A stretch of DNA of 64,000 nt. It comes from Roseibium aggregatum IAM 12614. GTDB lineage: Bacteria; Pseudomonadota; Alphaproteobacteria; Rhizobiales; Stappiaceae. Below, piece after piece: positions 10,809 to 62,837 of this stretch. Below the pieces are notes generated by a model. It saw only the letters and a list, made by a program, of their open reading frames with translations. It did not search any database and had not been told where the DNA came from. How positions within the stretch are numbered: position 1 is the stretch's first letter; each line of letters opens with the position of its first letter. Both the position numbers and the translations under genes were made by a program. The stretch is from assembly GCF_000168975.1 (NCBI RefSeq), contig NZ_AAUW01000002.1, forward strand, positions 62,001 to 126,000, written 5' to 3'.

Positions 10809-11299
10809 GTCATTGCAGGACATGATCCTGCAATCCATGCCGCGACAACGCCTCAAACCGAGACCCGTCGAGCAGAACCGGAACGGCGTGGATGCCATGG
10901 TCGAGCCATGGCATGACGAGTGGGTGGGCTGTGTTTCTTAACCTGACACCTGCAGTCACGACGCGCTGAGTTGAAGTCGCCAACAACCGTCCCCACCGCG
11001 TCATTGCAGGACTTGATCCTGCAATCCATGCCGTGCCATCGCCTTCAACCAAGGCCCGTTGAGCGAAACCGGAACGGCGTGGATGCCATGGTCGAGCCAT
11101 GGCATGACGAGTGGGTGAGCTGTGGTTCATAACCTGACACCCGCAGTCACGACGCGCTGAGTTGAAGACGCGAAAAACCGTCCCCACCGCGTCATTGCAG
11201 GACCTGATCCTGCAATCCATGCCGTGCCATCGCCTCAAACCGAGGCCTCTCGAGCGGAACCGGAACGGCGTGGATGCCATGGTCGAGCCATGGCATGAC
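10809..11299. repeat. Three palindromic elements in tandem, period 191 bp
   Basis: Copies lie at 10809-10917, 11000-11108 and 11191-11299, exactly 191 bp apart, separated by two similar 82-bp spacers. Each copy holds two hairpins. The first is GTCAT, arm TGCAGGA, 5-base loop, arm TCCTGCA, then ATCCA. The second is TGGAT, arm GCCATGG, loop TCGAG, arm CCATGGC, then ATGAC. The region separates convergent genes. Open frames here are short and only mirror the repeat, so it is non-coding. It is better read as a non-autonomous palindromic element duplicated with its flank than as a CRISPR. Confidence 0.9.
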
Positions 11300-11342
11300 G
11301 AAGAAATTGGACGATCTGAAGGTTATCTCCAAGGCTATGCCG

Positions 11343-12020
11343 TCAGGCCGCCTTGCCCTTTGTCAGTTCGGTGATGATGGCCGCGAAATTGTCGACGCCC
11401 TGCGCGCCTGAAACCAGGTGCTGACGTTCGAAGATGACCGCCGGAACGCCGTGGATGCCGTTGCCGGTCCAGAAGGCTTCTTCCGCGCGCACGATTTCGG
11501 CAAACCGGCCATCTTTCAGAACCGCGAGGGCTTCAGCGCGGTCCAGGCCGACGCTTTCGGCCACATCCGCCAGCACCTGATCGCTGTGAACGTCCTTGCC
11601 GTAGCGGAAATAGGCCTGGAACAGGGCCATCTTCAACGCATGCTCCTTGCTGCTCTCGCCAGCCCAATGGATCAGCTGGTGCGCCTTGAACGTGTTCACC
11701 ATGCGCATGTCGTCGGTAAACCTGAAGTCGAAACCGAGGCTTGCCCCGAGCTCCGTCAGCCTATCCCGCGCCGCCTGGGATTGCTCCGCGCTGGAGCCGT
11801 ATTTGCGCATGATGTGCTCTCGCAGGTTCTCCCCCTCGGCAACCATGTCCGGATTGAGTTCGAACGGATGCCACTTGATGGCGGCCGAAACGCCGGTGCG
11901 GGCGATGGCCTGTTCAAGCTGCTTGAAGCCGACGATGCACCACGGGCAGACCACGTCGGACACGATGTCGATCTGCAGAACGTCATCGAGGCCGGTCGTG
12001 TCGGTGTCTTGTGAAGTCAT
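11343..12020 (-). CDS. DsbA-family oxidoreductase (FrnE-like)
   Basis: A 225-residue thioredoxin-fold protein with the active-site CPWC in IDIVSDVVCPWCIVGFKQLE. No signal peptide is seen, so unlike DsbA it should act in the cytoplasm, as FrnE-type proteins do. Later motifs HPFELNPDM, AHQLIHWA and the cis-proline region GVPAVIFE fit the 2-hydroxychromene-2-carboxylate isomerase/DsbA superfamily. ATG at 12020 is preferred over an upstream in-frame start because AAGGAAA lies just before it. It appears monocistronic. Confidence 0.9.
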   Translation of the reverse strand: MTSQDTDTTGLDDVLQIDIVSDVVCPWCIVGFKQLEQAIARTGVSAAIKWHPFELNPDMVAEGENLREHIMRKYGSSAEQSQAARDRLTELGASLGFDFRFTDDMRMVNTFKAHQLIHWAGESSKEHALKMALFQAYFRYGKDVHSDQVLADVAESVGLDRAEALAVLKDGRFAEIVRAEEAFWTGNGIHGVPAVIFERQHLVSGAQGVDNFAAIITELTKGKAA

Positions 12021-12173
12021 GATGTTTCCTTTGCCGGCGCTGTCAGCCGAAGTCCGGCAAGCGCCATTGTCTGTCTTTCGCTGCATATAGGAGCCGCAGC
12101 CGCACGGGAAAAGGCGACGGTTACCGACGGGTAACCGCCTTTTCCGGTCAACTAGCTGCGTTCTGTCTCTCTT

Positions 12174-14063
12174 TCACAGGGTCTGATCGCCTTTCGGCGG
12201 CGGCGTCCAGCCGCGCTCCATGCCTTCCGTACGATCCCCGCCCCGGTCAACCTGCATGATTTCGAACAGGGTTTCGGAATGGGCGCGCATGGCATCGATA
12301 TAGGAGGTATCGACACCGCCATCGTTGAAGTTCCCGCGAAGGTCATCAAGCATCGCAATGTCGTGATGCCGGAACTCCCGCGTCTTGGTGCGGGCCCGGA
12401 ACGGATGGAAGCCCAGTTCAATCAATGCCTGGCGGCTTAGCGCGAGCGCCCCTTCGAAGACTTCCCGTTCGGCAAAATGAGCACCGGCATTTTCCAGTTC
12501 ATAGACGTGATGCCGGTCGCGGGCACGGGCAAGAATCCGAACCTTCGGATAGGTCCTGGCGACATGTTCCACCAGCTTTGTCTGCTTGTCGCGATCGTCC
12601 AGCGCGGCAATGAAGAGGTCGGCATCATCCAGCCCGGCACCGTGCAGGAGGTCCGGCCGGGTTGCATCGCCATAAAAGGTCTGAATGCCGATCCTTCGCA
12701 GGTTCTCGATCGTCTGCGGATCATGATCGAGAATGATCACGTCATAGCCGCTGGTCAGCAGCAGCCGCGAGACGATCTGCCCGAAGCGGCCCATGCCCGC
12801 GACAACGACGCGGCCGCGCCGGTCGATGACATCCGGCTCCCGGTCCGTTTTGGCAAAGGCACGCGGAGCGACGATTTTTTCGTAGAAGATGAACAAGGCA
12901 GGCGTCAGCAGCATGGAAACCGCCACGACCAGGGTCATGGTCTGGATCAGGGCCGGTTCCAGAACGCCGCTGCCGGAAGCAAAGCCGAAGAGAACGAAGG
13001 CAAACTCCCCGGCCTGGGCAAGACCGAGCGCAAACAGCCAAAGGTCAGGCCCCTGGAGACGGAACAAGGCCCCCAGCAGGAAGAGCACCACAAACTTGAC
13101 CGCAATCAACCCGAGCGCAAGGCCGAGGATCGTCAGGGGAGCGCCGAACAGGAGACCGAAATCGATCCCCGCCCCCACTGTCAGAAAGAACAGGCCAAGC
13201 AACAGGCCCTTGAACGGTTCGATGTCGCTTTCGAGCTCATGACGGTAATCGCTGTCGGACAGGACCACCCCGGCAAGGAAGGTTCCAAGCGCCGGCGACA
13301 GGCCGACAAAATCCATCACCAGCGCAATTCCGATAACCAGCAGCAACGCCGTTGCCGTGAAGATTTCCCGCAAGCGCGCTTCGGCAATGAACCGGAAGAC
13401 GGGCCGCAGCAGATGGCGGCCGGTCAGAATGATCGCCGCAATCACCGCCAGAATGATCAGCGCCTGCGCCCAACCCGGCAGGGCAGCAAGAGCTTCGCCG
13501 CCATGACCGGCGCTCTGGCCGTGATCCTCCGCAGCGGCGCCGCCGCCGTGCCCGCCGAGGGCAAGCAGAGGCAACACGACCAGCATCGGAATGACCGCGA
13601 TATCCTGGGTCAGCAACACCGAGAAGGAACTCTGCCCGCCCTGTGTTTTCAGCCAGCCTTTCTCGTTAAGTGTCTGCAAGACGATGGCGGTGGAGGAAAG
13701 CGACAGGATCATGCCGAGTGCCAGGGCGTTCTGCCACTGAAGACCGAACGCCAGACCGGCCCCGGCAAAGGCAAGAGCCGTCCCGACAACCTGCAAGCCG
13801 CCAAGCCCGATCAGTTGCTGGCGCATTTTCCAGAGCATGGCAGGCCGCAGTTCCAGCCCGACCAGGAACAGCATCATCACCACGCCGAATTCGGCAAAAT
13901 GCTGAACGTCGGCCGCCTCCGACCCGACAATGCCGATCACCGGTCCGATCACCACACCGGCGATCAGATAGCCGAGCACAGATCCGAGGCCGAGGCGGTT
14001 TGCAATCGGCACCGCAATGACGGCCGCACACAGATAGACGAAGGCTTCGCTGAGTAGCGCCAT
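12174..14063 (-). CDS. Kef-type K+/H+ antiporter (CPA2 family) with RCK domain
   Basis: A 629-residue membrane protein that releases K+ in exchange for H+, usually under electrophile stress. About residues 1-390 hold 11-13 membrane spans with GLGSVLGYLIAGVVIGP and GVVMMLFLVGLELRP. A Rossmann-type RCK/TrkA-N domain follows near 415-535 (VVVAGMGRFGQ, FYGDATRPDLL). The hydrophilic tail ends in WTPPPKGDQTL. Its ATG overlaps the stop of the upstream flavodoxin-fold gene by one base (TGATG). This fits KefB/KefC with a KefF/KefG-like activator. Which Kef type cannot be decided here. Confidence 0.93.
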   Translation of the reverse strand: MALLSEAFVYLCAAVIAVPIANRLGLGSVLGYLIAGVVIGPVIGIVGSEAADVQHFAEFGVVMMLFLVGLELRPAMLWKMRQQLIGLGGLQVVGTALAFAGAGLAFGLQWQNALALGMILSLSSTAIVLQTLNEKGWLKTQGGQSSFSVLLTQDIAVIPMLVVLPLLALGGHGGGAAAEDHGQSAGHGGEALAALPGWAQALIILAVIAAIILTGRHLLRPVFRFIAEARLREIFTATALLLVIGIALVMDFVGLSPALGTFLAGVVLSDSDYRHELESDIEPFKGLLLGLFFLTVGAGIDFGLLFGAPLTILGLALGLIAVKFVVLFLLGALFRLQGPDLWLFALGLAQAGEFAFVLFGFASGSGVLEPALIQTMTLVVAVSMLLTPALFIFYEKIVAPRAFAKTDREPDVIDRRGRVVVAGMGRFGQIVSRLLLTSGYDVIILDHDPQTIENLRRIGIQTFYGDATRPDLLHGAGLDDADLFIAALDDRDKQTKLVEHVARTYPKVRILARARDRHHVYELENAGAHFAEREVFEGALALSRQALIELGFHPFRARTKTREFRHHDIAMLDDLRGNFNDGGVDTSYIDAMRAHSETLFEIMQVDRGGDRTEGMERGWTPPPKGDQTL

Positions 14064-14680
14064 CAGACCGCCTCCCCTGTCAACAGAAAGCTCTCCAGCT
14101 CGCCGGACAGCACAGGCGCCGCAGCTGCCTTTTGAAGATCCAGCCGGCCACTGACGAGTGCCTTCAAGAGCTTTTCATAACCAAGACGATGGCTTTCCAA
14201 CCGGCTTTCCTCCAGGGCCCGCCCCGCTCCGAACAGCGCAAAGGGGGCGAGATAACGCATGCCGCAGAGGTCCGCCGTCTTTTCGAAAGGCCCCAGCAGA
14301 CTGCGCAATTCGGCATGGTTCATACCCGTTTGCGAGTAGGCATCCTGTTTGGCACCGGTCGTCACCGCGTTCAGGAAGATCTTGCCATGCAGCGCCTTGC
14401 CTTCATGGCCATAGGCAAAGCCATGTTCCAGCACCAGATCCAGCCACTCTTTCATGAGGGCCGGGGCTGAATACCAGTAGAGCGGATGCTGGAAGACAAT
14501 CACCTCATGCGCCCGCAGGCGATCCTGCTCCCGGTCGATGTCGATGCTGAAATCCGGATAGTCCGCATAAAGATCGACGGCGGTGACACCCTCGATCGAT
14601 CGCGCGGTTTCAAACAGTGGCAGGTTGATTTCCGACCTGTGCGGACGCGGATGCGCAAAGAAAACGATTACCTTGGGCAA
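14063..14680 (-). CDS. NAD(P)H oxidoreductase, KefF/KefG-like antiporter partner
   Basis: A 205-residue flavodoxin-fold quinone reductase, probably an FMN-binding regulator of the antiporter encoded downstream. Motifs are VIVFFAHPRPHRSEIN, QHPLYWYSAPALMKEWLD and GKIFLNAVTTGA. The frame is open to 14761 with an ATG, but that adds a cysteine-rich tail not normal for the family. TTG at 14680, with AGGAG 7 bases upstream, starts exactly at LPKVIVFFAHP and is preferred. It is translationally coupled to the antiporter gene. Confidence 0.88.
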   Translation of the reverse strand: MPKVIVFFAHPRPHRSEINLPLFETARSIEGVTAVDLYADYPDFSIDIDREQDRLRAHEVIVFQHPLYWYSAPALMKEWLDLVLEHGFAYGHEGKALHGKIFLNAVTTGAKQDAYSQTGMNHAELRSLLGPFEKTADLCGMRYLAPFALFGAGRALEESRLESHRLGYEKLLKALVSGRLDLQKAAAAPVLSGELESFLLTGEAV

Positions 14681-14869
14681 GAAAATCTCCTGGATCTGAG
14701 CAAGCCCGCAGAGCCGGCAATGCCTTCCAGGCGAGGCTGACCAACGGTCTGTATTCCGCAAAGTTTATAGGGATCATTGCCGACAGATAAAGGGCGCGAA
14801 CAGGAACCAGCCTGTTCGCGCCCATCGAACAATAACCGTCAAGGGGAAATGTCATTATCGCCGGCGGCG

Positions 14870-16003
14870 TCAACCCACCTTCGAGACCTGCACCCGGCCG
14901 CCGGTCTGACCGGCTTCGGCGATTGCATGGATCACCGCCTCGAAATGAAGCGCTTCGCGGAAAGACGGCACCGCGTTGCGGCCTTCGGCAATTGCCGTCA
15001 GGAATTCATGAACTTCGATCACCTTCAGATCGTTGAAGCCGAGCTGGTGACCCGCAGCCGGAACGAACTGGCCGTACGGCGGATGGGCCGGTCCGGTCAG
15101 CAGTGTCTTGAAGCCCTGTTCGGCAGCTTCACCCCGGTTCTGGTAAAGCCGGAGTTCGTTCATGCGCTCCTGATCAAAGGTGATCATGCCTTCGGCTCCA
15201 TGCACCTCGAAGGCGATGTAGCTCTTGCGGCCCCAGGCGCTGCGCGATGTCGAGACAACCCCATGGACACCGTTTTCGAAGGTCAGCAGCGCAGAGGCGA
15301 TGTCTTCGTTTTCAACCGGACGGCGCTCGGTTGAACCGTCCCCCATGGGCCGCGTTTCGTGAACAGTCTTCGTTTCAGCGATCAGGCTTTCGACCGGCCC
15401 CACGAGGGCCGTTGCCAGCGAGATCAGGTGGCAACCAAGGTCGCCCAGCGTGCCGAGGCCCGCGTCGGCCTTGGTGGCCCGCCAGGTCCAGGCGAGGTCC
15501 GGGTCAGCCTGATAGTCTTCATCGACCATCCCCCGGAAATGCACGATCCGGCCGATGGCCCCGTCCGCGATGAGTTTGCGGGCATGGGAAATCGCCGGAT
15601 TGTGCAGGTAGTTGTATCCGACGATGGTTTTCGCCCCCGTCCTTTCGGCAACGGCCAGCATCTGCCTGGCGTCCTCCAGGCTGAGCGCCATCGGCTTTTC
15701 CAGGTGCACATGCTTGCCCGCCTCAAGCGCGGCAAGCGCCATCTCCTTGTGCACCTTGTTGGGGGTGGTGATGCAGACGATATCGACCTTCGGATCCGCA
15801 ATCAGATCTTTCCAGTCGCTGGTTGCCCTTGCAAAGCCGAACTGGTCGGCAAAGGCTTCGGCCTTGTCCGCCGGAACGTCGCACAGCACTTCCAGGCGGG
15901 TCGCCGGCACATCGCCGAACACCGCCTTCACCGAACCATAGGCAAGCGCATGGCATTTGCCCATGAAACCGGTGCCGATCAATCCGATACCGAGACTTGT
16001 CAT
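14870..16003 (-). CDS. Gfo/Idh/MocA-family oxidoreductase
   Basis: A 377-residue NAD(P)-dependent sugar or inositol dehydrogenase. The Rossmann motif GLIGTGFMGKCHA is at the N-terminus and the catalytic EKP at HLEKPMALSLEDA. The region GDLGCHLISLATAL resembles the active-site His segment of the family. It lies downstream of iolG on the same strand, separated by a palindromic repeat, so it may be in the inositol regulon and act on another inositol isomer such as scyllo-inositol or a related keto-sugar. That substrate assignment is inference from position. Confidence 0.9.
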   Translation of the reverse strand: MTSLGIGLIGTGFMGKCHALAYGSVKAVFGDVPATRLEVLCDVPADKAEAFADQFGFARATSDWKDLIADPKVDIVCITTPNKVHKEMALAALEAGKHVHLEKPMALSLEDARQMLAVAERTGAKTIVGYNYLHNPAISHARKLIADGAIGRIVHFRGMVDEDYQADPDLAWTWRATKADAGLGTLGDLGCHLISLATALVGPVESLIAETKTVHETRPMGDGSTERRPVENEDIASALLTFENGVHGVVSTSRSAWGRKSYIAFEVHGAEGMITFDQERMNELRLYQNRGEAAEQGFKTLLTGPAHPPYGQFVPAAGHQLGFNDLKVIEVHEFLTAIAEGRNAVPSFREALHFEAVIHAIAEAGQTGGRVQVSKVG

Positions 16004-16052
16004 GTAATCCGATCCTCGTGAACGCCGTCAAGCGGGCCGCCACGCCCTTCTG

Positions 16053-16160
16053 CCTCATCCTGAGGAGGACCTTCAGGTCCGTCTCGAAGGATGGGCGGCT
16101 CCCACAGGAGCGAGCGGCCCATCCTTCGAGACAGCGCTCGCGCGCTTCCTCAGGATGAGG
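16053..16160. repeat. Intergenic palindromic element, CCTCAT...ATGAGG family, copy 1
   Basis: The ends CCTCATCCTGAGGA and TCCTCAGGATGAGG are inverted copies, and an inner pair (CGTCTCGAAGGATGGGC with GCCCATCCTTCGAGAC) makes a second stem. The 108-bp element fills the gap between iolG and the second dehydrogenase. Similar elements are at 25190-25296 and 27121-27220, with a half copy at 51042-51085. Confidence 0.9.
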
Positions 16161-16178
16161 TGATGCTTGTTCCGATGC

Positions 16179-17177
16179 TTAAACCTCGTCCATGCCGACA
16201 GCACGGCGTTCGGCGACGGACTTGAGGGCGGCTTCCGCCAGGGCGAGCGCCTTCAGGCCGTCCTCACCGCTGGGAGACGGCGCCGTGCCGGTTTCGATGG
16301 CCTCGACAAAGGCGGTGATTTCCGCCGCATAGGCTTCCGTGTAGCGGGTCATGAAGAAATCATGCAGCGGCGGACGGGTGTAACCGGCCTCAGTCGCCAC
16401 TTCGATGGACACCGGACGCTGGTTTTCCGCACTGACCACACCCTTGGAGCCGTGGACCTCTATCCGCTGGTCGTAGCCATAGGTTGCCCGGCGCGAGTTG
16501 GAGATCGAGCATTGCTTGCCGGAGGCCGTTGTCAGCACCACGGTGGCGCTGTCGTAATCGCCCAGCTTGCCGATTTCCGGATCGACCAGAACCGACGCTG
16601 TAGCGTAAACGGTGGTGACTTCATCGCCCAGCAGGAAGCGGGCCATGTCGAAATCGTGGATCGTCATGTCGCGGAAGATCCCGCCGGACGACGTGATGTA
16701 GGACGGCGGCGGAGCGCCCGGATCACGCGAGGTGATCTGCACCATTTCCACGTCCCCGATCCGGCCTTCGTCGATGGCGGCACGCACGGCGCGGAAATGC
16801 GGATCGAAGCGGCGGTTGAAACCGAGCATCAGGGTCGCGCCGAGGTCTTCGACCGTCTTCAGGCAGGCCTTCACGCGGTCCAGTGACAGATCGACCGGCT
16901 TTTCGCAGAAGATCGCCTTGCCTGCCCGTGCGAATTTCTCAATGAGATCCGCGTGGGTGTCGGTCGGCGTGCAGATGACCACCGCATCGACATCACCTGC
17001 ACCTGCGATCTCGTCGATGGTGCTGACGCGTGCGCCATAGGCCGCCGCAAGTGTTTCGGCAGCTTCCGGGAAAGCGTCCGCAACCGCGACAAGCGTCGCG
17101 CCGGCGGCCGCGCCAATGGCCTTTGCATGCACTTTACCGATACGTCCGGCCCCTAGCAGGGCGACATTGACGGCCAT
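16179..17177 (-). CDS. iolG: Inositol 2-dehydrogenase
   Basis: A 332-residue NAD-dependent Gfo/Idh/MocA enzyme that oxidises myo-inositol to 2-keto-myo-inositol, the first step of the iol pathway. The N-terminal VALLGAGRIGKVHAKAI binds the cofactor. FCEKPVDLSLD carries the catalytic Lys, and RDMTIHDFDMARFLLG the Asp/His pair typical of inositol dehydrogenase. ATG at 17177 follows GGGAGGAAG and is preferred over an upstream in-frame start. The gene is divergent from the RpiR regulator, with a candidate operator between them. Confidence 0.93.
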   Translation of the reverse strand: MAVNVALLGAGRIGKVHAKAIGAAAGATLVAVADAFPEAAETLAAAYGARVSTIDEIAGAGDVDAVVICTPTDTHADLIEKFARAGKAIFCEKPVDLSLDRVKACLKTVEDLGATLMLGFNRRFDPHFRAVRAAIDEGRIGDVEMVQITSRDPGAPPPSYITSSGGIFRDMTIHDFDMARFLLGDEVTTVYATASVLVDPEIGKLGDYDSATVVLTTASGKQCSISNSRRATYGYDQRIEVHGSKGVVSAENQRPVSIEVATEAGYTRPPLHDFFMTRYTEAYAAEITAFVEAIETGTAPSPSGEDGLKALALAEAALKSVAERRAVGMDEV

Positions 17178-17235
17178 GATACTTCCTCCCGGATGACATG
17201 TGGCAGAGCGGATTGAACCAGCGCTTGCCAATTTA

Positions 17236-17249
17236 GAATAAAAATTCCA
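17236..17249. promoter_or_regulatory. Candidate IolR-type operator, AGAA-N6-TTCC
   Basis: AGAA (17236-17239), six bases, TTCC (17246-17249) differs at one position from GGAA-N6-TTCC, the motif I recall for the RpiR-type IolR of Sinorhizobium meliloti. It lies between iolG and the RpiR-type gene, where both could be controlled. Confidence 0.6.
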
Positions 17250-17294
17250 AAATCATTTTCGACGGAATGTGTCAAGCCGGAAAAGAAGAAGACA

Positions 17295-18161
17295 ATGAAT
17301 GACGCCTCGCCCGATCCTGACAAGGACCCCAACCTCGCTTCCGCCGAAATCCTTGCCCCGCCTCAGTCCATCGACGCGTTTTTCGCCCGTCTCGGCAGCA
17401 CTGCGGACAGACTGCCCAAACGTCTGAAACAATTCGCGAACTACATTGCAGCCAATCCAGACAAGGTGGCGGTTTCCACCGTTGCCGAACTTGCCGAGGG
17501 CGCTGATGTGCAACCGTCCGCGGTGATGCGTTTCTGCCAGGAAATGGGTTTTTCCGGTTTTTCGCAAATGCAGAAGCTGTTCCGCTCCGATTATTCGCAG
17601 AAGTGGCCGGACTACGCCACCCGCCTCGCCAAATTGCGCGAACACGGCACTGAGTCCCCCTCCGCCCTTCTGGCTGAATTCGTCGAGGTTGGCCGGGCGT
17701 CCCTGGAAAACCTGCTGACAACCGTCGACCCCATCGCCCTTCAACAGGCGGTCGATGTGCTGGCCCGCGCCGAGACAATTCACATGATCGGCTTCCGCAG
17801 GGCCTTCCCGGTCACGTCCTATCTCGCTTATGCCTTCGAAAAGATGGACGTTCCCGCCGTTCTCCATTCCGGCATCGCCAACATAAACATGGAACACCTG
17901 ATCCGGCCGAACGATGCCGTGATCGCGGTGACGTTTGCGCCTTACACCGAAATGACCATCGACATGGCCACCAAGGCCCGTGCCAGCGGCGCCGATATTG
18001 TCGCCATCACGGATGTGGTCACCAGCCCGCTCGCGCGCCTCAAGGCGATTCAGCTTCTGGTCTCTGAACTGGACGTCGGCGCCTTCCGGGCCCTGTCCGC
18101 AAGTCTCTCTCTGGCCATTGCTCTCGCGGTTTCCGTCGGGGCGCAGAGGAACCGGATGTGA
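17295..18161 (+). CDS. iolR: RpiR/MurR-family transcriptional regulator, probable inositol regulator
   Basis: A 288-residue regulator with an N-terminal HTH_6 domain near residues 30-105 (LPKRLKQFANYIAANPDKVA, PSAVMRFCQEMGFSGF) and a C-terminal SIS sugar-phosphate-binding domain near 130-280 (IHMIGFRRAFPVTSYLAYA, IAVTFAPYTEMT, IVAITDVVTSPLA). It stands between iolG and the inositol transporter genes, with a GGAA-N6-TTCC-type site on each side. The effector would be an inositol catabolite. AAGAAGAAG precedes the ATG. The role as IolR is inferred from context and matching sites. Confidence 0.88.
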   Translation: MNDASPDPDKDPNLASAEILAPPQSIDAFFARLGSTADRLPKRLKQFANYIAANPDKVAVSTVAELAEGADVQPSAVMRFCQEMGFSGFSQMQKLFRSDYSQKWPDYATRLAKLREHGTESPSALLAEFVEVGRASLENLLTTVDPIALQQAVDVLARAETIHMIGFRRAFPVTSYLAYAFEKMDVPAVLHSGIANINMEHLIRPNDAVIAVTFAPYTEMTIDMATKARASGADIVAITDVVTSPLARLKAIQLLVSELDVGAFRALSASLSLAIALAVSVGAQRNRM

Positions 18162-18198
18162 GATTTATGGAAAAAATCTGTTGCGCTCAGATCAAAAT

Positions 18199-18212
18199 GG
18201 AATTTATATTCC
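18199..18212. promoter_or_regulatory. IolR-type operator GGAA-N6-TTCC upstream of the transporter operon
   Basis: GGAATTTATATTCC is a near-perfect dyad that matches GGAA-N6-TTCC exactly. It lies 95 bp upstream of the binding-protein start, right after the regulator gene, where it would repress the long transporter and catabolic operon. Confidence 0.7.
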
Positions 18213-18306
18213 AAATGCGGCGACGGACAGCCGGAGCCGCCACAGACTTCTGATGACGCGGGTGGGATTGTTTGAGGCCCGCGGTCCACGTTCTGGGAGG
18301 AACACC

Positions 18307-54631: not shown

Positions 54632-55492
54632 TCACTTGACGACCTGCTCACGCAGGACCTCGTGCACGAGGTCGGCAAGTACCGGTGCGGCACAAGCGTG
54701 TTTTCGCAAGTAAACCATTTCGCGTCCCGTGCCGCCCGGAAGAGCTTTCAAGGTCATCGCCGGTCCATGCGTCCGCAAGCCCTGCCAGACAGGCAGGATC
54801 GCCTGTCCGGCTCCGTGAGACACCATCTGCGCAATCGTTTCAGGGGCATCGAGTTCGCAAAATATGTGCTCTTCGCCAACCATCCCCCCGAACGCCGCCC
54901 ATAGCTTGCGGCCGCCCCACGACTGTCTGTCGTAGACGATCCAGGGCAGGTCTTCAGCACTGAACGATGTGTAACGGTCCGGTGGCAAGGCATGAACGAC
55001 AGCCTGAACCTCCAGCGTTCGGCTGATGATGTCCTTGGGCAAATCAAAGGGAGCGGCAACCGTGATGGCCGCGTCCAGGCCCCCGTTGCGCAAACCTTCG
55101 TAAAGATCGGCCGACGTCCCGGGCCGGACTGTCAGCACAGCCTGAGGCGCCTTGACCCGGAAGTGTTGAATGACAGCAGGCACCGTGTCCGAAAGCGCCG
55201 TCGACACAGCCCCCAGCCGGAACGGGCCACTCAGACCGGAAGCATCTATGCCGCTGATCAATTGTTCCGCGTCGCGCACCAGACGACGCGCCGCAGGCAA
55301 AAGCCGGAAGCAGGTTTCGGTCGGCAAGGCCGCGTGCGCCGTCCGGTTCAACAGCGCTGCTCCGAATTCGGCTTCCAGCACACGGATACGCTGGCTCACA
55401 GCAGCGGCCGTTAGCCCCTGCTGGCGAGCCGCAGCCGCGATGGAGCCGGTTTCGGCAACGGCCAGCAGGCTTTCGAGAAAATGGGTATCCAA
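54632..55492 (-). CDS. LysR-family transcriptional regulator
   Basis: A 286-residue regulator. The winged helix at residues 1-60 reads MDTHFLESLLAVAETGSIAA then QQGLTAAAVSQRIRVLEAEF, typical of LysR, followed by a linker helix and a two-lobe effector domain (GPFRLGAVSTALSDTVPAVI, AAITVAAPFDLPKDI). It is divergent from the VOC protein gene with a 90-bp shared region, so it likely controls the VOC-reductase pair. Confidence 0.92.
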   Translation of the reverse strand: MDTHFLESLLAVAETGSIAAAARQQGLTAAAVSQRIRVLEAEFGAALLNRTAHAALPTETCFRLLPAARRLVRDAEQLISGIDASGLSGPFRLGAVSTALSDTVPAVIQHFRVKAPQAVLTVRPGTSADLYEGLRNGGLDAAITVAAPFDLPKDIISRTLEVQAVVHALPPDRYTSFSAEDLPWIVYDRQSWGGRKLWAAFGGMVGEEHIFCELDAPETIAQMVSHGAGQAILPVWQGLRTHGPAMTLKALPGGTGREMVYLRKHACAAPVLADLVHEVLREQVVK

Positions 55493-55582
55493 AATATTTT
55501 CCTTCGCTCAGAAGCAGAAAAACATCTTAAATGTTTTGGATCGGATCTGCTACTCAACACTCGTTTTCAAAGGAGCCGAGCG

Positions 55583-55996
55583 ATGCAACCCTGTTTCCAT
55601 CTTGCCTACCACGTTACCGATCTGGACGAAGCCCGTGCGTTCTACGGCGGCCTGCTTGGCTGCAAGGAGGGCCGCAGCACAGACACCTGGGTCGATTTCA
55701 ATTTCTTCGGCCATCAGGTTTCACTCCATCTCGGCAAACCGTTTGAAACGACCAACACAGGCAAGGTTGGGGATCACATGGTGCCGATGCCGCATCTGGG
55801 GGTGGTGCTGGACATGGAGACCTGGAAGGCGCTTGCGCAAAAATTGACAGACGCTAACCTCGCCTTCGTCATCGCCCCGACCGTCCGGTTCGAGGGCCAA
55901 CCCGGCGAGCAGAGCACCATGTTTTTCAAAGACCCTTCCGGCAACCCCATCGAAATAAAAGGCTTTGCGGATGAAGCCGGGGTTTTTGCCGCATGA
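55583..55996 (+). CDS. VOC-family (glyoxalase/dioxygenase fold) protein
   Basis: A 137-residue protein with two beta-alpha-beta-beta-beta units: FHLAYHVTDLDEARAFYGGL in the first, and a second ending FFKDPSGNPIEIKGF, with His near the start, His in FFGHQVSLHL and Glu in IEIKGF as possible metal ligands. AGGAG 8 bases before ATG 55583 decides the start over an open upstream frame. It overlaps the next gene by 4 bases (ATGA). Substrate unknown; dioxygenase or lyase activities are typical of the fold. Confidence 0.88.
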   Translation: MQPCFHLAYHVTDLDEARAFYGGLLGCKEGRSTDTWVDFNFFGHQVSLHLGKPFETTNTGKVGDHMVPMPHLGVVLDMETWKALAQKLTDANLAFVIAPTVRFEGQPGEQSTMFFKDPSGNPIEIKGFADEAGVFAA

Positions 55997-56940
55997 GGCC
56001 AGTTGTCCCCTTCGTATCTTCCGCCAGCCCCGATGAGCGCCAGACTTGGCGGGCGGCCCTGCCGCAGGCTCTCGACGGTATCGCCGCCGTCAAGCCGTTT
56101 GAGGACCTGACGGAAGAGGAACGCACCGCAGCGCGCGTTGCCATTGTCGCCAATCCCGATCCGGCCAATGTAGCAGCTCTTCCCAATCTGGTCTGGGTGC
56201 AAAGCCTGTGGGCCGGCGTGGAGCGCCTGATGAGTGAACTTCCTGCGGACGGCCCGCAGATCGTCCGCCTCACGGATCCGCAAATGGCGGAAACCATGTC
56301 GGAAGCCGTTCTCGCCTGGACGCTTTACCTGCACAGGGCCATGCCCCGGTACATGGCCCAGCAGCGCCAGAAGATCTGGCAGGATCATGAACTCAAAAGC
56401 CCTCAGGAACGCACGGTCGGCGTCCTGGGCCTGGGCAAGCTCGGCGCAGCGTCTGCCTTGCGGATGAAAGCCAACGGCTTCAACGTGCTTGGCTGGAGCC
56501 GGTCCAAAAAAACAATCGAGGGCATTGTCTGCCGCCATGGCCGCGACGGCCTTCTGGAGGTGCTCGGCCAGTCGGATTTCATCGTCCTGCTGATGCCGTT
56601 GACGGATGAAACACGAGGGCTGATCGGCCAGGACGAACTGAGCGTCTGCAAGAAGGGTGCTTCGGTCATCAACTTCGCCCGGGGCCCGATTATCGACACC
56701 GCCGCTCTCATCAACGCACTCGACAACGGCCCACTCGACCATGCCGTTCTCGACGTCTTCGATGAAGAGCCGCTGCCGCCGTCAAGTCCGCTGTGGGATC
56801 ATGACAAGGTCACGGTCCTGCCGCACATCACCGCTCCAACCGGCATCAGCACTACCTCCAGGATCGTTGCCGACAATATCGGCCGGTATTTTGAAGACGG
56901 CACGGTTCCACCGGCAGTCGACCGGGAGCGTGGATACTGA
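55993..56940 (+). CDS. D-2-hydroxyacid dehydrogenase, glyoxylate/hydroxypyruvate reductase A type
   Basis: A 315-residue NAD(P)H-dependent reductase. The Rossmann motif is GVLGLGKLGAASALRMKANG, and the catalytic Arg, Glu and His are in NFARGPIID, DVFDEEPLP and VLPHITAPT. The GhrA branch is suggested by length and by WVQSLWAGVERLM near residue 60. It is co-translated with the VOC protein. The likely role is reduction of a 2-keto acid such as glyoxylate or hydroxypyruvate. Confidence 0.9.
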   Translation: MRPVVPFVSSASPDERQTWRAALPQALDGIAAVKPFEDLTEEERTAARVAIVANPDPANVAALPNLVWVQSLWAGVERLMSELPADGPQIVRLTDPQMAETMSEAVLAWTLYLHRAMPRYMAQQRQKIWQDHELKSPQERTVGVLGLGKLGAASALRMKANGFNVLGWSRSKKTIEGIVCRHGRDGLLEVLGQSDFIVLLMPLTDETRGLIGQDELSVCKKGASVINFARGPIIDTAALINALDNGPLDHAVLDVFDEEPLPPSSPLWDHDKVTVLPHITAPTGISTTSRIVADNIGRYFEDGTVPPAVDRERGY

Positions 56941-57025
56941 CATTTGATCCGCCGGCCGTCGCAATAGTGTCAAGGATCAGCCTCTAATCAGGCGGCAACC
57001 GTATCGTCTATTTCAAAGGTGTTTC

Positions 57026-57844
57026 ATGACCGACCTACCCATTCTCGGCGCCGCGCTGACAGTCTCCTCGCTGGAAACCCATCGCAAGCTGATGCTGGAC
57101 AAACCACGAGATCTGGAATTGCAGGACTTCTGGCCAGCGGAAGTTCTCAATGGCGACTGGAAGCCGATTGTCGAAAAGGCCAAAAAACTGCTCGACGGCC
57201 ATCAGGGCCGCGTCGGCATCCACGGCCCTTTCTTCGGCTTTACCGTCGACAGCATGGATGTCGAGGTGCGCGAGATCGTGCGCAAGCGCCTGCTGCAGGG
57301 GCTGGAAGTCTGCGAGGCCCTGGGTGGCACCCATATGGTGGTGCACAGCCCCTTCACGACGTGGGACTACAACAACCTCGACAATTACGAAAATGGCAGG
57401 CAGCGCAAGATAGAGCTCTGCCACCTGACCATGACGGACGCGGTCAAGCGAGCCGAAGACATCGGCTGCGAACTTGTCATCGAGAATATCGAGGACAAGG
57501 ATCCCTCTGCCCGGATCGAACTGGCCGAAAGCTTCGGTTCGGATGCGGTGAAAATCTCGATCGACACCGGCCATGCGCATTATGCCCATGGCACGACCGG
57601 CGCTCCACCGGTTGATTATTACGTCAAGATCGCCGGCAACCGCCTTCGCCACATCCACCTGCAGGACGCGGACGGCTACGCCGACCGCCACTGGACACTT
57701 GGGCAGGGCACCATCAACTGGCATTCCGTGTTCGATGCGCTGTCCAAGCTCGACAGTGACCCGCGCCTGATCATCGAACTGCGCGACCATTCCGGCCTGC
57801 CGGCCTCGATCGCCAACATGGCCGCACTTGGCCTGGCGCAGTAA
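57026..57844 (+). CDS. TIM-barrel sugar phosphate isomerase/epimerase-like protein
   Basis: A 272-residue AP-endonuclease-2/xylose-isomerase-like barrel. Metal-ligand patterns are visible: ELVIENIEDKDP (Glu), SIDTGHAHYAHG (Asp, His), RHIHLQDADGYADRHW (His, Asp) and LIIELRDHSG (Glu). Such proteins isomerise sugars or sugar acids in many catabolic loci. It follows the reductase gene by 85 bp on the same strand and may be its partner. The substrate is not predictable. Confidence 0.88.
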   Translation: MTDLPILGAALTVSSLETHRKLMLDKPRDLELQDFWPAEVLNGDWKPIVEKAKKLLDGHQGRVGIHGPFFGFTVDSMDVEVREIVRKRLLQGLEVCEALGGTHMVVHSPFTTWDYNNLDNYENGRQRKIELCHLTMTDAVKRAEDIGCELVIENIEDKDPSARIELAESFGSDAVKISIDTGHAHYAHGTTGAPPVDYYVKIAGNRLRHIHLQDADGYADRHWTLGQGTINWHSVFDALSKLDSDPRLIIELRDHSGLPASIANMAALGLAQ

Positions 57845-57861
57845 CCACAAGACAGCTCTGC

Positions 57862-57889
57862 ACGACGGCGCCTGTCAGTGCGCCGTCGT
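57862..57889 (+). terminator. Stem-loop after the isomerase-like gene
   Basis: ACGACGGCGC (57862-57871) pairs perfectly with GCGCCGTCGT (57880-57889) around an 8-base loop. There is no T-run. Its right arm touches the repeat that starts at 57885. Confidence 0.6.
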
Positions 57890-57950
57890 TCCGGGAAAGT
57901 GCAACGCAAGACGCACGTCGATCCGGAATGCTGCGCTTGTCCGAAATGAC
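57885..57950. repeat. Shortened copy of the GTCATTCCGGA palindromic element
   Basis: It starts GTCGTTCCGG and ends TTGTCCGAAATGAC, with GATCCGGAAT in the middle, matching the element at 60811-60974 with an internal deletion. It lies between convergent genes. Confidence 0.7.
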
Positions 57951-57989
57951 GCTCAGACGAGAGCCTGAGCGCACAATGTTCGAGAAAAC

Positions 57990-59414
57990 TCAGCCCATCG
58001 CCCAGGGGCCGTGGTAGCCGCTGCCGTCCTTGTCGGTGCGCTCAAACCCATGGGCGCCGAAGAAATCGCGCTGGCCCTGAAGCATGTTGGCGGTGGAGCG
58101 GCCGGTGCGCATGATGTCGAAATAGGACAGCGCTGCCGAAAGCGCCGGAACCGGCAAGCCGTGCATGGCCGACTGGGCAACGACCTGGCGCAGCATCGCT
58201 TCGGTTTCCTTCAGCTTTGCCGAGAAGAACGGCGCCAGCATCAGGTTGCGTTCGGCGTTGTCCGAGAGTGCGGACGACATGTCGTTCAGCATGGACGAGC
58301 GGATGATGCAGCCGTTGCGCCAGATCTTGGCGATTTCCGGCAGGGGCATTGCCCAGCCATATTGCTTGGCTGCTTCCAGGATCAGACCGAAGCCCTGCGC
58401 ATAGCAGATGATCTTGCCGGCAACGAGCGCCGCTTCCAGCGCATCGATGGCCACCGCTTCGCGGTCCATGCCGGTGGGTGCCGCGCCGAATTCGGCTTCG
58501 CCTTCCTTGCGTTCCTCATACCGCGCCGACATGTTGCGCACGGCAACCGCCGCCTCAATGGCGCTCGCCGGCGTGCCCAGCATCAGAGCCTCGATGGCGG
58601 TCCAGCGGCCGGTGCCTTTCTGGCCGGCCTTGTCGAGAATGATGTCGAGCATCGGCTTGCCGGTGTCCGGATCTGCAGTCTTGGCAACCTTGCCGGAAAT
58701 CTCGATCAGGTAGGACTGCAGGATGCCGCCGTTCCACTTCTCGAAGACATCGCCGATCTCGGACGCCGACATGCCGAAACCGTCACGCATGACGCCGTAG
58801 ACTTCGGCAATCATCTGCATGTCGGCATATTCGATGCCGTTATGGACGGTCTTGACCAGATGGCCCGCGCCCGCTTCACCCAGATAAGCCGCACAGGGCG
58901 TTTCTTCGTGCTTGGCGGAGATCGCTTCCAGAATATGTCCGACCTGATCCCACGCGTCCTTCGCACCGCCGCCCATGATGGACGGACCGAAGCGCGCGCC
59001 TTCCTCGCCACCGGAAACGCCGATGCCCATGAAGCGCGGGCCCTTCTCGGCAGCATCCGCCGCACGGCGGTTGGTGTCGTGGTAATTGGCATTGCCCGCA
59101 TCGATGATGAGATCGCCGGCATCGAGCAGCGGCCGCAGAGCTTCGATCTGCGCATCGACCGCGTCTCCGGCTGGAACCATCAGGATGACCGCGCGCGGCG
59201 TCTTGATGGAGGCAACGAACTCTTCCAGCGTCTTGGTCGGCACGAGTTTCGGCGCAAGTTCACCGGCCTTTGTCATGAACTGGTCGGTCTTTTCCGTGGT
59301 CCGGTTGAAGACCGCGATCTGAAAGCCATGTTCGGCAATATTGAGCGCAAGATTGCCACCCATGGTACCGAGACCGATCAGGCCGATTTCCGCGGCCGCG
59401 CCGTTTGAGCTCAT
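57990..59414 (-). CDS. gnd: 6-phosphogluconate dehydrogenase, decarboxylating
   Basis: A 474-residue enzyme of the oxidative pentose phosphate pathway that makes ribulose 5-phosphate, CO2 and NADPH. Motifs are IGLIGLGTMGGNLALNIAEH, GVSGGEEGARFGPSIMGGG, KTVHNGIEYADMQMIAEVYG with the catalytic Lys, and KAGQKGTGRW. The length is standard for the long form. ATG 59414 has AAAGG 7-8 bases upstream and is preferred over ATGs at 59420 and 59429. It stands alone on its strand. Confidence 0.95.
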   Translation of the reverse strand: MSSNGAAAEIGLIGLGTMGGNLALNIAEHGFQIAVFNRTTEKTDQFMTKAGELAPKLVPTKTLEEFVASIKTPRAVILMVPAGDAVDAQIEALRPLLDAGDLIIDAGNANYHDTNRRAADAAEKGPRFMGIGVSGGEEGARFGPSIMGGGAKDAWDQVGHILEAISAKHEETPCAAYLGEAGAGHLVKTVHNGIEYADMQMIAEVYGVMRDGFGMSASEIGDVFEKWNGGILQSYLIEISGKVAKTADPDTGKPMLDIILDKAGQKGTGRWTAIEALMLGTPASAIEAAVAVRNMSARYEERKEGEAEFGAAPTGMDREAVAIDALEAALVAGKIICYAQGFGLILEAAKQYGWAMPLPEIAKIWRNGCIIRSSMLNDMSSALSDNAERNLMLAPFFSAKLKETEAMLRQVVAQSAMHGLPVPALSAALSYFDIMRTGRSTANMLQGQRDFFGAHGFERTDKDGSGYHGPWAMG

Positions 59415-59761
59415 GAACATGCCTTTCATAAATCGATTAATGTCTGGTGGGGCGGTGATAGCCGACAAGCTCTCCAACGGCAATCTCTCGATTGGGCAAG
59501 ATCATGTAAAATCCTCGCGCATTCGGAAGCGGCGGCCCCACCTTCCAAATGCGTCTGCTTTGGATTGTTCTGAACGCAGAACGGATATGTCCCATGACGG
59601 CACATACGCCACCGATTAACGCCGTTCTACCTGACCCTTCTTCATTTAGCCGGCTAAATTACTCGTAAAAATACTGGCATTCCGAATAAAACTGTCATGT
59701 AGAGCTGATAGGCGATCTTCATCCGCAACCCTTTTGCTGTTGTGCGCAAAGGATCTGTCAC
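59415..59761. other. 347-bp gap between divergent gnd and the ferric-type transporter
   Basis: No gene is seen. It must hold both promoters. A perfect 16-bp palindrome is at 59644-59659, and a TTCTG-N4-CAGAA dyad lies near 59568-59581. Confidence 0.5.
59644..59659. promoter_or_regulatory. 16-bp perfect palindrome ATTTAGCCGGCTAAAT, candidate operator
   Basis: The sequence equals its own reverse complement and has a central CG, as LacI-family operators do. It lies 103 bp before the binding-protein gene. The cognate regulator is not identified. Confidence 0.5.
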
Positions 59762-60742
59762 ATGAAAAAGCTTCTGATTGCAGCCGGCCTTCTGGCCGCG
59801 GCATCCGCCTCCGCCTACGCTGAAGATGTTACCGGCAAGCTGGTGCTCTACACTTCGCAGCCGAATGCCGACGCCCAGGCGACCGTTGATGCCTTCACCG
59901 CGGCGCATCCCGGCGTTGAAGTCGAGTGGGTGCGCGATGGCACCACCAAGATCATGGCGAAGCTGCTGGCCGAATTCGAAGCCGGCGCACCGAAGCCGGA
60001 CGTTCTTCTGATCGCCGACATGGTGACCATGGAAAGCCTGAAGCAGGAAGACCGCCTGATGGCCCATGAGGCGGCTGACGTTTCCGCCTACGACCCGGCG
60101 ATCATGGACAAGGACAAGACCTACTTCTCCACCAAGCTGATCACCACCGGCATCATGTACAACACCAATGCGACGATGAAGCCGACGTCCTACAAGGACC
60201 TCTTGAAGCCGGAAGCCAAGGACAAGCTGGCCATGCCCTCGCCGCTGACCTCCGGTGCCGCAACCATCCACATGACCGCGCTGACCTCCAACCCGGATCT
60301 CGGCTGGGCCTATTACGAAGGCCTCGCAGACCAGGGCGCCAACCCGCAGGGCGGCAATGGCGGTGTCTACAAGGCGATTGCCGGTGGCGAAAAGCTGTAT
60401 GGCTTCGTTGTCGACTTCCTGCCGATCCGCGAAAAGGTAAAAGGCGCCCCGGTTGAGTTCGTCTTCCCGGAAGAAGGCGTTTCCGCTGTCACCGAACCGG
60501 TCGCGATCCTCTCCACCGCGCAGAACCCGGATGCGGCCAAGGCATTCGTCGACTTCCTGATCTCCGAAGACGGTCAGAAACTTGCTGCTTCCCAGGGTTA
60601 TCTGCCGGCGCACCCGGGCGTCCCGGCTCCGGAAGGCTTCCCGGCTCGCGATCAGATCAAGCTCATGAAGTTCGATCCTGCCGAAGCCCTGAAACAGGAC
60701 CAGGCCAACAAGATGAAGTTTTCCGAGATCTTCGGCGGGTAA
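59762..60742 (+). CDS. ABC transporter binding protein, ferric iron/2-aminoethylphosphonate type
   Basis: A 326-residue class-2 binding protein with a signal peptide at 1-20 (MKKLLIAAGLLAAASASAYA). It has LVLYTSQPNADAQATVDAFT, PDVLLIADMVTMESLKQE and ITTGIMYNTNATMKPTSYKD, as in FbpA/FutA and PhnS-like proteins. NPDLGWAYYEGLADQGANP holds paired Tyr residues that could coordinate iron. The stop is followed by a stem-loop and a palindromic repeat, then the permease gene. Iron is the first guess, with phosphonate or polyamine as alternatives. Confidence 0.88.
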   Translation: MKKLLIAAGLLAAASASAYAEDVTGKLVLYTSQPNADAQATVDAFTAAHPGVEVEWVRDGTTKIMAKLLAEFEAGAPKPDVLLIADMVTMESLKQEDRLMAHEAADVSAYDPAIMDKDKTYFSTKLITTGIMYNTNATMKPTSYKDLLKPEAKDKLAMPSPLTSGAATIHMTALTSNPDLGWAYYEGLADQGANPQGGNGGVYKAIAGGEKLYGFVVDFLPIREKVKGAPVEFVFPEEGVSAVTEPVAILSTAQNPDAAKAFVDFLISEDGQKLAASQGYLPAHPGVPAPEGFPARDQIKLMKFDPAEALKQDQANKMKFSEIFGG

Positions 60743-60765
60743 GGCTGCCGACTCAAAACAAGTTC

Positions 60766-60795
60766 GGCTGCGCGGTACTCGTTTCCCGCGCGGCC
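60766..60795 (+). terminator. Stem-loop after the ferric-type binding-protein gene
   Basis: GGCTGCGCGG (60766-60775) pairs with CCGCGCGGCC (60786-60795), with one G-U pair, followed by TTCCATTCTTTT. Confidence 0.65.
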
Positions 60796-60810
60796 TTCCA
60801 TTCTTTTCAC

Positions 60811-60974
60811 GTCATTCCGGACAAATGCAGCTCTGCTGCATGCTGATCCGGAATCCAGACATCAGCATGAGCAAAGCGAATACTTTTCCGTTTGGAATTT
60901 GGCCGCGCCTCCGGCGCGAAGTATGTCTGGATTCCGGATCATCGCTCGGCTGCGCCTCACTTGTCCGGAATGAC
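60811..60974. repeat. Palindromic element with GTCATTCCGGA ends, two hairpins
   Basis: The ends GTCATTCCGGACAA and TTGTCCGGAATGAC are inverted. Inside, GATCCGGAATCCAGACAT (from 60844) is mirrored by ATGTCTGGATTCCGGATC. The plan is GTCAT-TCCGGA-loop-TCCGGA-ATCCA, a middle part, then TGGAT-TCCGGA-loop-TCCGGA-ATGAC. It lies within the transporter operon, between binding-protein and permease genes. Confidence 0.9.
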
Positions 60975-60998
60975 TGCGGGAAGCAACGGTAAATCCCT

Positions 60999-62699
60999 GT
61001 GCAGCTATCAAGGCTTTCCGAAAAGACCACCCTCCTCGCACTCGTTCTCGGCGCAACGCTGATCTGCGGCCTGCCGTTGCTGCTCTTGTTCAAGACCGGG
61101 CTGACGGGTGAGCATGGACTGAACTTCGGCCCGCTTCTGGAGGCCATGCAGAACCGGTCGGTCCGCAGCGCGCTATGGCATTCCGTTGAGAGCAGCTTCT
61201 GGTCTGCCCTGGCGGCGACCGCGCTCGGTACCCTGCTCGCACTGCTGATCGGTCTCACCGATATTCGTACCAAGGGGCTGCTGGTCTTCCTGATCCTGCT
61301 GCCGATGATGATCCCGCCGCATGTCACGGCAATTGCCTGGATCCAGGCGCTCGGTCCGGGAAGCCCGGTTTTGCGCTGGCTCGGGCTTGCTCCCGAACTC
61401 GGCTCCACCCACCCGCTTTATTCGCGTGAAGGCCTCGTCCTGCTGCTGACGCTGCAGCACAGCCCGCTGGTGTTCCTTTTGGTGCGCGCCGCGCTCCGGT
61501 CGCTCCCGCGCGAACTATCGGATGCAGCCCGCGTCTCCGGGGCCGGTAGTCTGTTGATGCTGCGCCGGATCACACTGCCGCTTCTGGCCCCTTCACTGCT
61601 GGCCGGTTTCGCACTCGCCTTTGTGGCAGCGCTTGGCAACTTCGGCATCAACGCGCTGATCGGCATTCCCGCGCGCTACACCACCTTGCCCGTATTGGTC
61701 TGGCGGAGGCTGGCAAGCTTCGGGCCTGATGTCCTGCCCAATGTGGCGGTGATTTCGGTCATTCTCTCTGCTGTTGCCCTTGCCGCGATTCTGTTGCAAG
61801 GCGTGTTGCAGCGGCGCATGCGCACCAGCCTCATCGGCCTGCCGCAGGCTCCGCTGGCGATTTCCCTTGGCAGCAAGCGCCCCTTTGTCGAAGCGGCGCT
61901 CTGGCTGTTCGTCGCCTTCGTGCTGCTGTTGCCGACGGCCTCGCTGCTGGCAACCTCGCTGGTCCGCACCTACGGCCTTCAGCTTTCAGCCGAAACCCTG
62001 ACCTTCGAAAACTTCACCGAGGTGCTCTGGCGCCAGTCCGTTACCCTGCGCGCCTTCGCCAATTCCACGATCATCGCCGGATCGGCAGCACTAGCCATCG
62101 CCTTTGTCAGCCTGTTCCTGGCCTATTTCCTCGCGCACCGGAAACGGGCCCACCGAAACTGGGCAAACCTTGCGCTGACACAGTCGGAAATCGCCTTTGC
62201 GGTTCCCGGTCTGGTGATGTCGATCGCCTTCATTCTGGCCTTCATCCGGCCCCTGCCACTTTTGAACATCTCGCTCTACGGCACACTCTGGATCATTCTG
62301 ATTGCTTATGTCTCCGTCTTCCTGGCAGTCGGCCTGAAACCGGTCGCCGCCGCCTTCCTGCAGATGGACCGCTCGCTGGAAGATGCGGCACGGGTGGCCG
62401 GCGCCGGCTTCTTCCGGCGCATGACGCGGATCTTCACCCCGCTCGCAGCCCCGGCGGCTGCCTCCGGGGCAATCCTGGTGTTCCTGACCGCTTACAATGA
62501 AGTGACGGTTTCCGCCCTGCTCTGGTCGACCGGCAACGAAACCATCGGCACCACGATCTTCAACTACGAAGACGGCGGCTACACCACCCTTGCCGCGTCC
62601 ATGTCGGTGGTAGTGGTTGCCGCAACGATTTTCATCATGCTGGCAATGAACGCGCTTGCAAAGCGGGTACCGGCCGGGACGATCCCGTGGAAGGATTGA
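60999..62699 (+). CDS. ABC transporter permease, two fused domains (FbpB type)
   Basis: A 566-residue permease with about twelve hydrophobic spans in two homologous halves. Each half has an EAA-like loop: SDAARVSGAGSLLMLRRITL near residue 175 and EDAARVAGAGFFRRMTRIFT near residue 460. This two-domain form is usual for FbpB/SfuB-type ferric and related importers. GTG 60999 is the only early start without an ATG, and no good ribosome-binding site is seen, so the exact start is uncertain. The ATPase gene of the set is on the opposite strand. Confidence 0.9.
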   Translation: MQLSRLSEKTTLLALVLGATLICGLPLLLLFKTGLTGEHGLNFGPLLEAMQNRSVRSALWHSVESSFWSALAATALGTLLALLIGLTDIRTKGLLVFLILLPMMIPPHVTAIAWIQALGPGSPVLRWLGLAPELGSTHPLYSREGLVLLLTLQHSPLVFLLVRAALRSLPRELSDAARVSGAGSLLMLRRITLPLLAPSLLAGFALAFVAALGNFGINALIGIPARYTTLPVLVWRRLASFGPDVLPNVAVISVILSAVALAAILLQGVLQRRMRTSLIGLPQAPLAISLGSKRPFVEAALWLFVAFVLLLPTASLLATSLVRTYGLQLSAETLTFENFTEVLWRQSVTLRAFANSTIIAGSAALAIAFVSLFLAYFLAHRKRAHRNWANLALTQSEIAFAVPGLVMSIAFILAFIRPLPLLNISLYGTLWIILIAYVSVFLAVGLKPVAAAFLQMDRSLEDAARVAGAGFFRRMTRIFTPLAAPAAASGAILVFLTAYNEVTVSALLWSTGNETIGTTIFNYEDGGYTTLAASMSVVVVAATIFIMLAMNALAKRVPAGTIPWKD

Positions 62700-62715
62700 G
62701 CGATATTCGCAGCTC

Positions 62716-62837
62716 TTGTCATCCCGGGCAAAGCGCAGCGCAGACCTGGGATCGAGTAACCGCAGGCATCGGGGATACGCCAAATCTGCTGCGGCGTACT
62801 GGATCCCGGTCTTGGCTATGCCAAACCGGGATGACAA
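62716..62837. repeat. Palindromic element with TTGTCATCCCGG ends, two hairpins
   Basis: The ends TTGTCATCCCGG and CCGGGATGACAA are inverted. The left half reads GTCAT-CCCGGG-loop-CCTGGG-ATCGA and the right half TGGAT-CCCGG-loop-CCGGG-ATGAC. It fills the gap between the convergent permease and ATPase genes. Confidence 0.88.

Follow-up and report, generated by a model that had tools for sequence, protein, structure and literature searches.

Which enzyme spreads short palindromic repeats that keep their outer bases while the arms of their hairpins change? This question is raised by a 64,000-nucleotide stretch of the Roseibium aggregatum IAM 12614 genome (contig NZ_AAUW01000002.1, positions 62,001 to 126,000; hereafter "the window"), in which a first-pass annotation had described elements of three families with unrelated arms but one shared two-hairpin plan. 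This plan is borne out, and the elements are repetitive extragenic palindromic (REP) sequences of the known CGTC-tagged class in head-to-head dimers. Judging from genome comparison, they are probably non-autonomous and serve as substrates for a small nuclease of the GIY-YIG type ("REP-associated GIY-YIG"), the gene of which lies between such units elsewhere in the same genome.

All five dimers of the window (coordinates in the table below) consist of a plus-strand unit of the form GTC-AT-arm-loop-arm'-AT-CCA followed by an inverted unit, and a unit detector with the pattern GTC, 8-bp stem, loop, complementary stem and CCA finds nine of the ten units exactly. The GTC tag and a stem starting with AT are present in 10/10 units, while the base before GTC is C in seven, T in two (both of family 3) and A in one (the unit ending at 60974). 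The CCA tail is found in 9/10; the remaining unit, the left one of family 3 (62718-62755, plus strand), has two mismatches, one in the stem and the other a CGA tail, confirming the ATCGA that had been read there in place of ATCCA. The right unit of the same dimer (62800-62835, minus strand) is exact, and the ends of this element, first placed at 62716-62837, had to be corrected to 62718-62835. Loops measure around 5 nt in family 1 and are much longer in families 2 and 3. The family 2 dimer is a homodimer with the stem ATTCCGGA in both units, and many further copies in the own and related genomes have the same end points, give or take a few bases.

Contrary to the initial impression that such a shared rule had gone unrecognised, it is already described in the available part of a 2013 survey of CGTC-tagged REPs (Di Nocera et al., PMC3733652): an unpaired CGTC (or TGTC/CCTC), a stem of 8-9 bp starting with AT, a loop of 4-5 nt (with other loops noted in some families), a CCA tail and head-to-head dimers. 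The class is widespread and includes dRS3 of Neisseria (CGTC-1) as well as RPE-4 and RPE-6 of Rickettsia. The window elements resemble it in tag, AT-starting stem, CCA tail, head-to-head dimers, heterodimers and intergenic position, and differ in that the loops of families 2 and 3 exceed the usual 4-5 nt. With the rule already described, the open point is the enzyme: in that part of the survey, many species with CGTC REPs are said to have tyrosine transposase genes, none of them flanked by CGTC units, and the mobilising enzyme is left open (PMC3733652). While the published class thus comes without an associated transposase gene, we find a GIY-YIG nuclease gene between matched units, and a specific gene family flanked in this way makes the question of the mover testable at the bench.

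At locus L221 of the own genome, a gene for a 96-amino-acid GIY-YIG protein (the C21 gene) lies inside a pair of inverted TGCAGG-type units, each of which has a unit of the GCCATGG type on its outer side. Nine of a first set of 11 loci encoding the C21 protein or a relative (L221 included) had units nearby, but this set is biased because most loci had been chosen for their repeats; two matches in random stretches of the own genome were without units at ≤1 mismatch, and one of these (L192, the gene at C46:218570) has variant-tail units that were recognised later. Altogether, the own genome has five small GIY-YIG genes, of which three (C21, C38 and C37) are accompanied by units at ≤1 mismatch, while at the other two (C46 and C17) units with variant tails can be recognised by eye on both sides. 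Our main sample comprised 72 small GIY-YIG loci from the PF01541 matches listed in 70 genomes, made up of 30 loci, 40 further ones (38 in list order and two from the own genome) and another two own loci. Of these, 68 were taken regardless of repeats, and all were ranked solely by phmmer score to the C21 protein since an earlier motif-based split had misplaced several proteins. A unit was present within 250 bp at 37/72 loci, 28 of them with units on both sides, and at 35/68 when the four loci outside list order are omitted. All 37 flanked loci rank within the top 46; unlike this C21 subfamily, the 26 lowest-scoring small GIY-YIG genes sampled are not tied to REP units (0/26). In the same genome set, 0/20 UvrC genes had units, and random Roseibium positions had one in 68/3,328 cases (2.0%) and never on both sides.

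The association extends well beyond the genus. A draw of 397 Pseudomonadota genomes contained 112 with a relative of the C21 protein at E ≤1e-12, and among the best 30 loci (one being C21 again) 26 were flanked, 18 on both sides. Outside the class, units flanked 18 of the 20 loci picked (14 on both sides), and for named records picked from a plasmid collection the figure was 10 of 13 (7 on both sides). Pooled, 90/110 loci were flanked, 66 of them on both sides, with layouts of +/- (gene enclosed) at 43, -/+ at 15, -/- at 5 and +/+ at 3. The flanked records include Neisseria gonorrhoeae (ATTCCC units), Aeromonas caviae, Azospirillum lipoferum, Sinorhizobium meliloti (a CTCAT variant), Rhizobium, Shinella and Sphingobium, though the single Neisseria case carries little weight alone because Neisseria is dense in such repeats. 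In many lineages, genome comparison thus shows matching CGTC units on the flanks of a distinct subfamily of genes, predicted to encode GIY-YIG proteins of about 96 amino acids. To the extent of our searches, this makes a new candidate enzyme for CGTC REPs: literature searches joining GIY-YIG with repeat terms among open-licence articles in PubMed Central (PMC) yielded no linking paper among the matches listed (a Moraxella paper and PMC10928387 among them proved unrelated in the passages compared), and a report elsewhere is possible.

Units and genes are also matched to each other. Of the 66 two-sided loci, 57 have a left and a right stem that agree in all 8 nt, compared to a mean of 4 and a maximum of 11 after shuffling (where a side has two units, the better-fitting one counts, in the shuffles too). 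Across genomes, protein similarity and unit similarity are weakly correlated (Spearman 0.24; ≤0.14 in 500 shuffles), and within genomes the unit was closer to that of the nearest foreign relative than to co-resident ones in 16 cases, less close in 5 and tied in 5. The C21 gene is the counterpart of family 1, the unit of the C38 gene resembles the right unit of family 3, and the best counterpart found for family 2 is a locus in a relative (G017), and long loops of this type are also seen at a locus in G011. Rather than the single enzyme that had been envisaged at the outset, the sequences point to what is probably a nuclease family of the GIY-YIG type, whose members each have an arm type of their own.

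Whether the fixed ends (hereafter "feet") are more than coincidence can be judged without presupposing them. In a flank-blind survey of 1,372 hairpins (stem ≥8 bp) in 1.26 Mb of the own genome and four relatives, GTC/CCA was the commonest flank pair (19 observed against 0.88 expected), and exact units numbered 29 in 864 kb of the own genome but 1 in 744 kb of the own genome reversed. When the longest hairpin on either side of GIY-YIG genes was taken with feet ignored, GTC/CCA accounted for 72/169 (next pair 5; control 2/382). The first-pass annotation would have regarded the shared plan as coincidence if its terminal pentamers were no more conserved than the arms, and we made this comparison in two ways. 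For hairpins beside GIY-YIG genes, the six foot positions hold 0.41-0.79 bits and stem positions 3-8 hold 0.06-0.58, the foot values being inflated by choosing the strand by fit to GTC/CCA (in the control likewise). For 43 unselected partner hairpins with the strand set by the seed, the values are 1.05-1.73 and 0.46-1.41 bits. Overall, conservation is higher in the feet than in the arms, with overlapping ranges. Those 43 hairpins come from 76 units found in named genomes, mostly Roseibium, with the family 1 left unit as seed, and 33/43 have the feet TGG/GAC with several different arms. As an example, the arms that come after this left unit are of the CCATGG type in Roseibium but of the CCCGG type in a metagenome-assembled genome (MAG) of the Rhodobacteraceae, with the feet kept. 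All stem cells pair in 24 hand-picked units with AT beside the foot from several genomes, and 7/9 pairs vary on both sides, though full pairing and constant AT are partly due to picking visible hairpins with AT. Units with GTCAC or GTCTT do occur, and the loop CTTGA is also fixed in one unit class. Largely fixed feet and compensating arms agree with the initial reading as a REP-like superfamily and are as expected if an enzyme reads feet plus hairpin.

The C21 protein matches PF01541 (E 1.7e-16) and has no match in PADLOC or NCBIfam. Among 105 of the 110 proteins, E65, K69, R73 and T22 are conserved at 1.00 and R28 and H32 at 0.99, while two tyrosines at 1.00 were required by the filter that selected the 105. 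In the GIY-YIG family such Arg, Glu and Tyr residues are catalytic, and those conserved here are expected to be so as well. An AlphaFold2 model from six sequences (predicted local distance difference test score 79) had the UPF0213 structure 1zg2 as its first match (E 1e-4), followed by Slx1 with E-values from 0.01 upwards (probability 0.98-1.00); by sequence, UPF0213 is a clear match and UvrC and Slx1 are marginal ones. Slx1 is a nuclease of branched DNA, and it is in the modelled fold that the protein resembles it. With UPF0213/Slx1-type nucleases the protein shares Pfam family, fold and conserved residues, but it belongs to a subfamily with an NGTLYxGVT motif that is tied to REP units.

Fixed feet, freely varying but paired arms and an Slx1-like nuclease would fit the following scheme. 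The nuclease may recognise the hairpin, or a junction formed by the dimer, through the feet GTC/CCA (plus the loop in some families) and nick at the feet, with the arms free to change provided that they pair. The cut could let host repair make a copy of the element, or of the gene, at a new site or at one that already bears a repeat, and the dimers would be dispersed substrates or homing sites of the nuclease. Different members might serve the window families, the C21 gene acting on family 1 and the C38 gene on the right unit of family 3. It appears slightly more probable than not that CGTC REPs and GIY-YIG genes form a class of bacterial mobile elements of their own, in which an Slx1-like structure-selective nuclease spreads through mainly foot-defined hairpins with no transposase chemistry, and which would account for CGTC REPs from Alphaproteobacteria to Neisseria. 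If so, a different nuclease chemistry would stand beside the systems of REPs and REP-associated tyrosine transposases (RAYTs).

Among enzymes with GIY-YIG chemistry are free-standing homing endonucleases. The gene might likewise parasitise REP dimers, cutting them as its homing site and being copied into their spacers, while another enzyme spreads the dimers. We consider this unlikely, though it is the most credible of the alternatives. It would explain why the gene is frequently found inside one dimer, in its spacer, within an array of like dimers (L270, L283, L290, L266, L394), why some repeat-rich genomes are without it and why spacer leaders do not match, and the first and last of these observations keep it alive. 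Less easily accommodated are several elements of the form unit-gene-unit with identical stems (L235, L265, L377) and the weak but significant matching of subfamily to unit types, and the sole other enzyme family tested, Y1, is not tied to the repeats. Free-standing GIY-YIG homing genes are similar in that a small gene possibly spreads by cutting gene-less sites, but here the putative homing site is a dispersed genomic hairpin repeat.

That RAYT-type (Y1) transposases spread CGTC elements as they do GTAG REPs, for which this pairing is established in the available parts of PMC3116915 and PMC8266576, is very improbable even though the dimer architecture is shared. The initial suggestion of a RAYT/Y1-type gene finds no support: Y1_Tnp (PF01797) has no match in the own genome, is found in 4/45 genomes of the genus and in 6/31 repeat-rich versus 5/30 repeat-poor alphaproteobacterial genomes, and among 19 Y1 loci a single unit (≤1 mismatch) is present at four and two units at none. 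GTAG REPs and REPINs (REP doublets) with their RAYTs, known as REPtrons, are comparable in dimer layout and in a cognate gene flanked by inverted units; their tag, however, is GTAG instead of GTC/CCA (all window units carry GTC and none has GTAG), and their enzyme is an HUH Y1 transposase instead of a GIY-YIG nuclease. Units might also act mainly at the RNA level for the host, as terminators or mRNA stabilisers, with their position near the nuclease gene reflecting its regulation. RNA roles for REPs have been proposed (in the available part of PMC3733652), and the window repeats sit near gene ends by eye, but we judge this improbable: it would leave unexplained why the stems to the left and right of the gene match, why the gene is absent at related loci and why UvrC and other small GIY-YIG genes have no units.

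Several observations weigh against substrates of a GIY-YIG nuclease as the proper reading of these dimers. The repeat-rich genomes G292 (with 59 CTTGA-type units, many identical), G359, G259, G329 and G149 are without a convincing relative of the gene, and G126 has a weak one (E 0.0014). Small GIY-YIG genes, counted after subtracting one UvrC per genome, occur in 23/31 repeat-rich and 17/30 repeat-poor genomes, which is a weak contrast, and this split relies on a noisy pattern whose matches in G206 look spurious. At ≤1 mismatch, 20/110 loci are without a unit, including Planktothrix, Spirosoma and Novosphingobium, though inspection by eye of four counted as unflanked (L242, L272, L278, L301) reveals units with variant tails on either side. 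Our random-position control covers Roseibium, and elsewhere, including genomes with denser repeats such as Neisseria, the control is UvrC of other genomes. The similarity of family 1 spacers to leaders of gene-bearing elements (8.16) is within chance (shuffled 7.84, maximum 8.69), so that an origin of dimers by internal deletion, as for miniature inverted-repeat transposable elements (MITEs), is unsupported and was no longer favoured. Finally, comparisons in Azospirillum, Roseibium, Sinorhizobium and Shinella yielded no clean pair of filled and empty sites with exact ends or a target duplication; exact ends were not obtained for Sinorhizobium (both carry the gene) and Shinella, and G010/G011 and G003/G006 gave no clean pair either.

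What these comparisons do show is presence and absence of the gene. In A. lipoferum, a dimer-gene-dimer arrangement lies between sufB and sufC; among the matches listed, 11 other Azospirillum records match both ends of the query at around 70% coverage, and in all six of those compared the suf spacing is too short for the gene. The C21 gene is absent at 5/5 orthologous Roseibium loci with both flanks covered (L403-L406, L409; L407 and L408 were excluded since the right flank was not reached), and G016 and G005 have repeat-like remnants at this site by eye. At the family 2 site of the window, G010 has the full dimer, while G011 has a 117-bp deletion between two TCCGGAAT repeats of the dimer, the product of which is the sole composite hairpin in 1.66 Mb.

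Table. REP dimers and units of the window, and the gene corresponding to family 1
Feature	Position	Strand	Details
Family 1 dimer, copy 1	10809..10917	+	head-to-head REP dimer; sequence reading and unit detector
Family 1 copy 1, left unit	10809-10837	+	stem ATTGCAGGA
Family 1 copy 1, right unit	10889-10917	-	stem ATGCCATGG
Family 1 dimer, copy 2	11000..11108	+	units 11000-11028(+), 11080-11108(-)
Family 1 dimer, copy 3	11191..11299	+	units 11191-11219(+), 11271-11299(-)
Family 2 dimer	60811..60974	+	units 60811-60857(+), 60928-60974(-); long loops
Family 3 dimer	62718..62835	+	units 62718-62755(+), 62800-62835(-)
C21 gene (family 1 counterpart)	G000:C21:8514-8801		96-aa GIY-YIG

A number of further observations concern the repeats themselves, for which Rfam gives no match in the window. 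The three family 1 dimers at 10809-11299 form a tandem array with a period of 191 bp that includes around 80 bp of flanking DNA, which looks more like local duplication than three insertions. The ends of family 1 spacers (10838-10888; L059-L122) are often complementary (ATCCATGCCGT ... ACGGCATGGAT), which would allow the dimer to adopt a four-way junction, and the flanks of these dimers (L059-L122) appear pyrimidine-rich upstream of GTCAT and purine-rich downstream of ATGAC. The family 1 left-unit pattern also occurs, with other partner arms, in MAGs labelled Elusimicrobiaceae and Actinomycetota (L079, L081, L107, L105). A preference for heterodimers was considered and dropped: 61 of 79 distinct dimers are hetero pairs, and random pairing of the pooled stems predicts around 90%. 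In G292, many near-identical units lie ≤300 bp from contig ends, which suggests an assembly interrupted by a longer repeated element. In L059, L067, L089, L226 and L403, a sequence resembling an insertion sequence (IS) or MITE and beginning with CCCACTGCTGTCCGG directly follows the loop TCAAG in units of the CCATGG type, as though it used the REP loop as a target.

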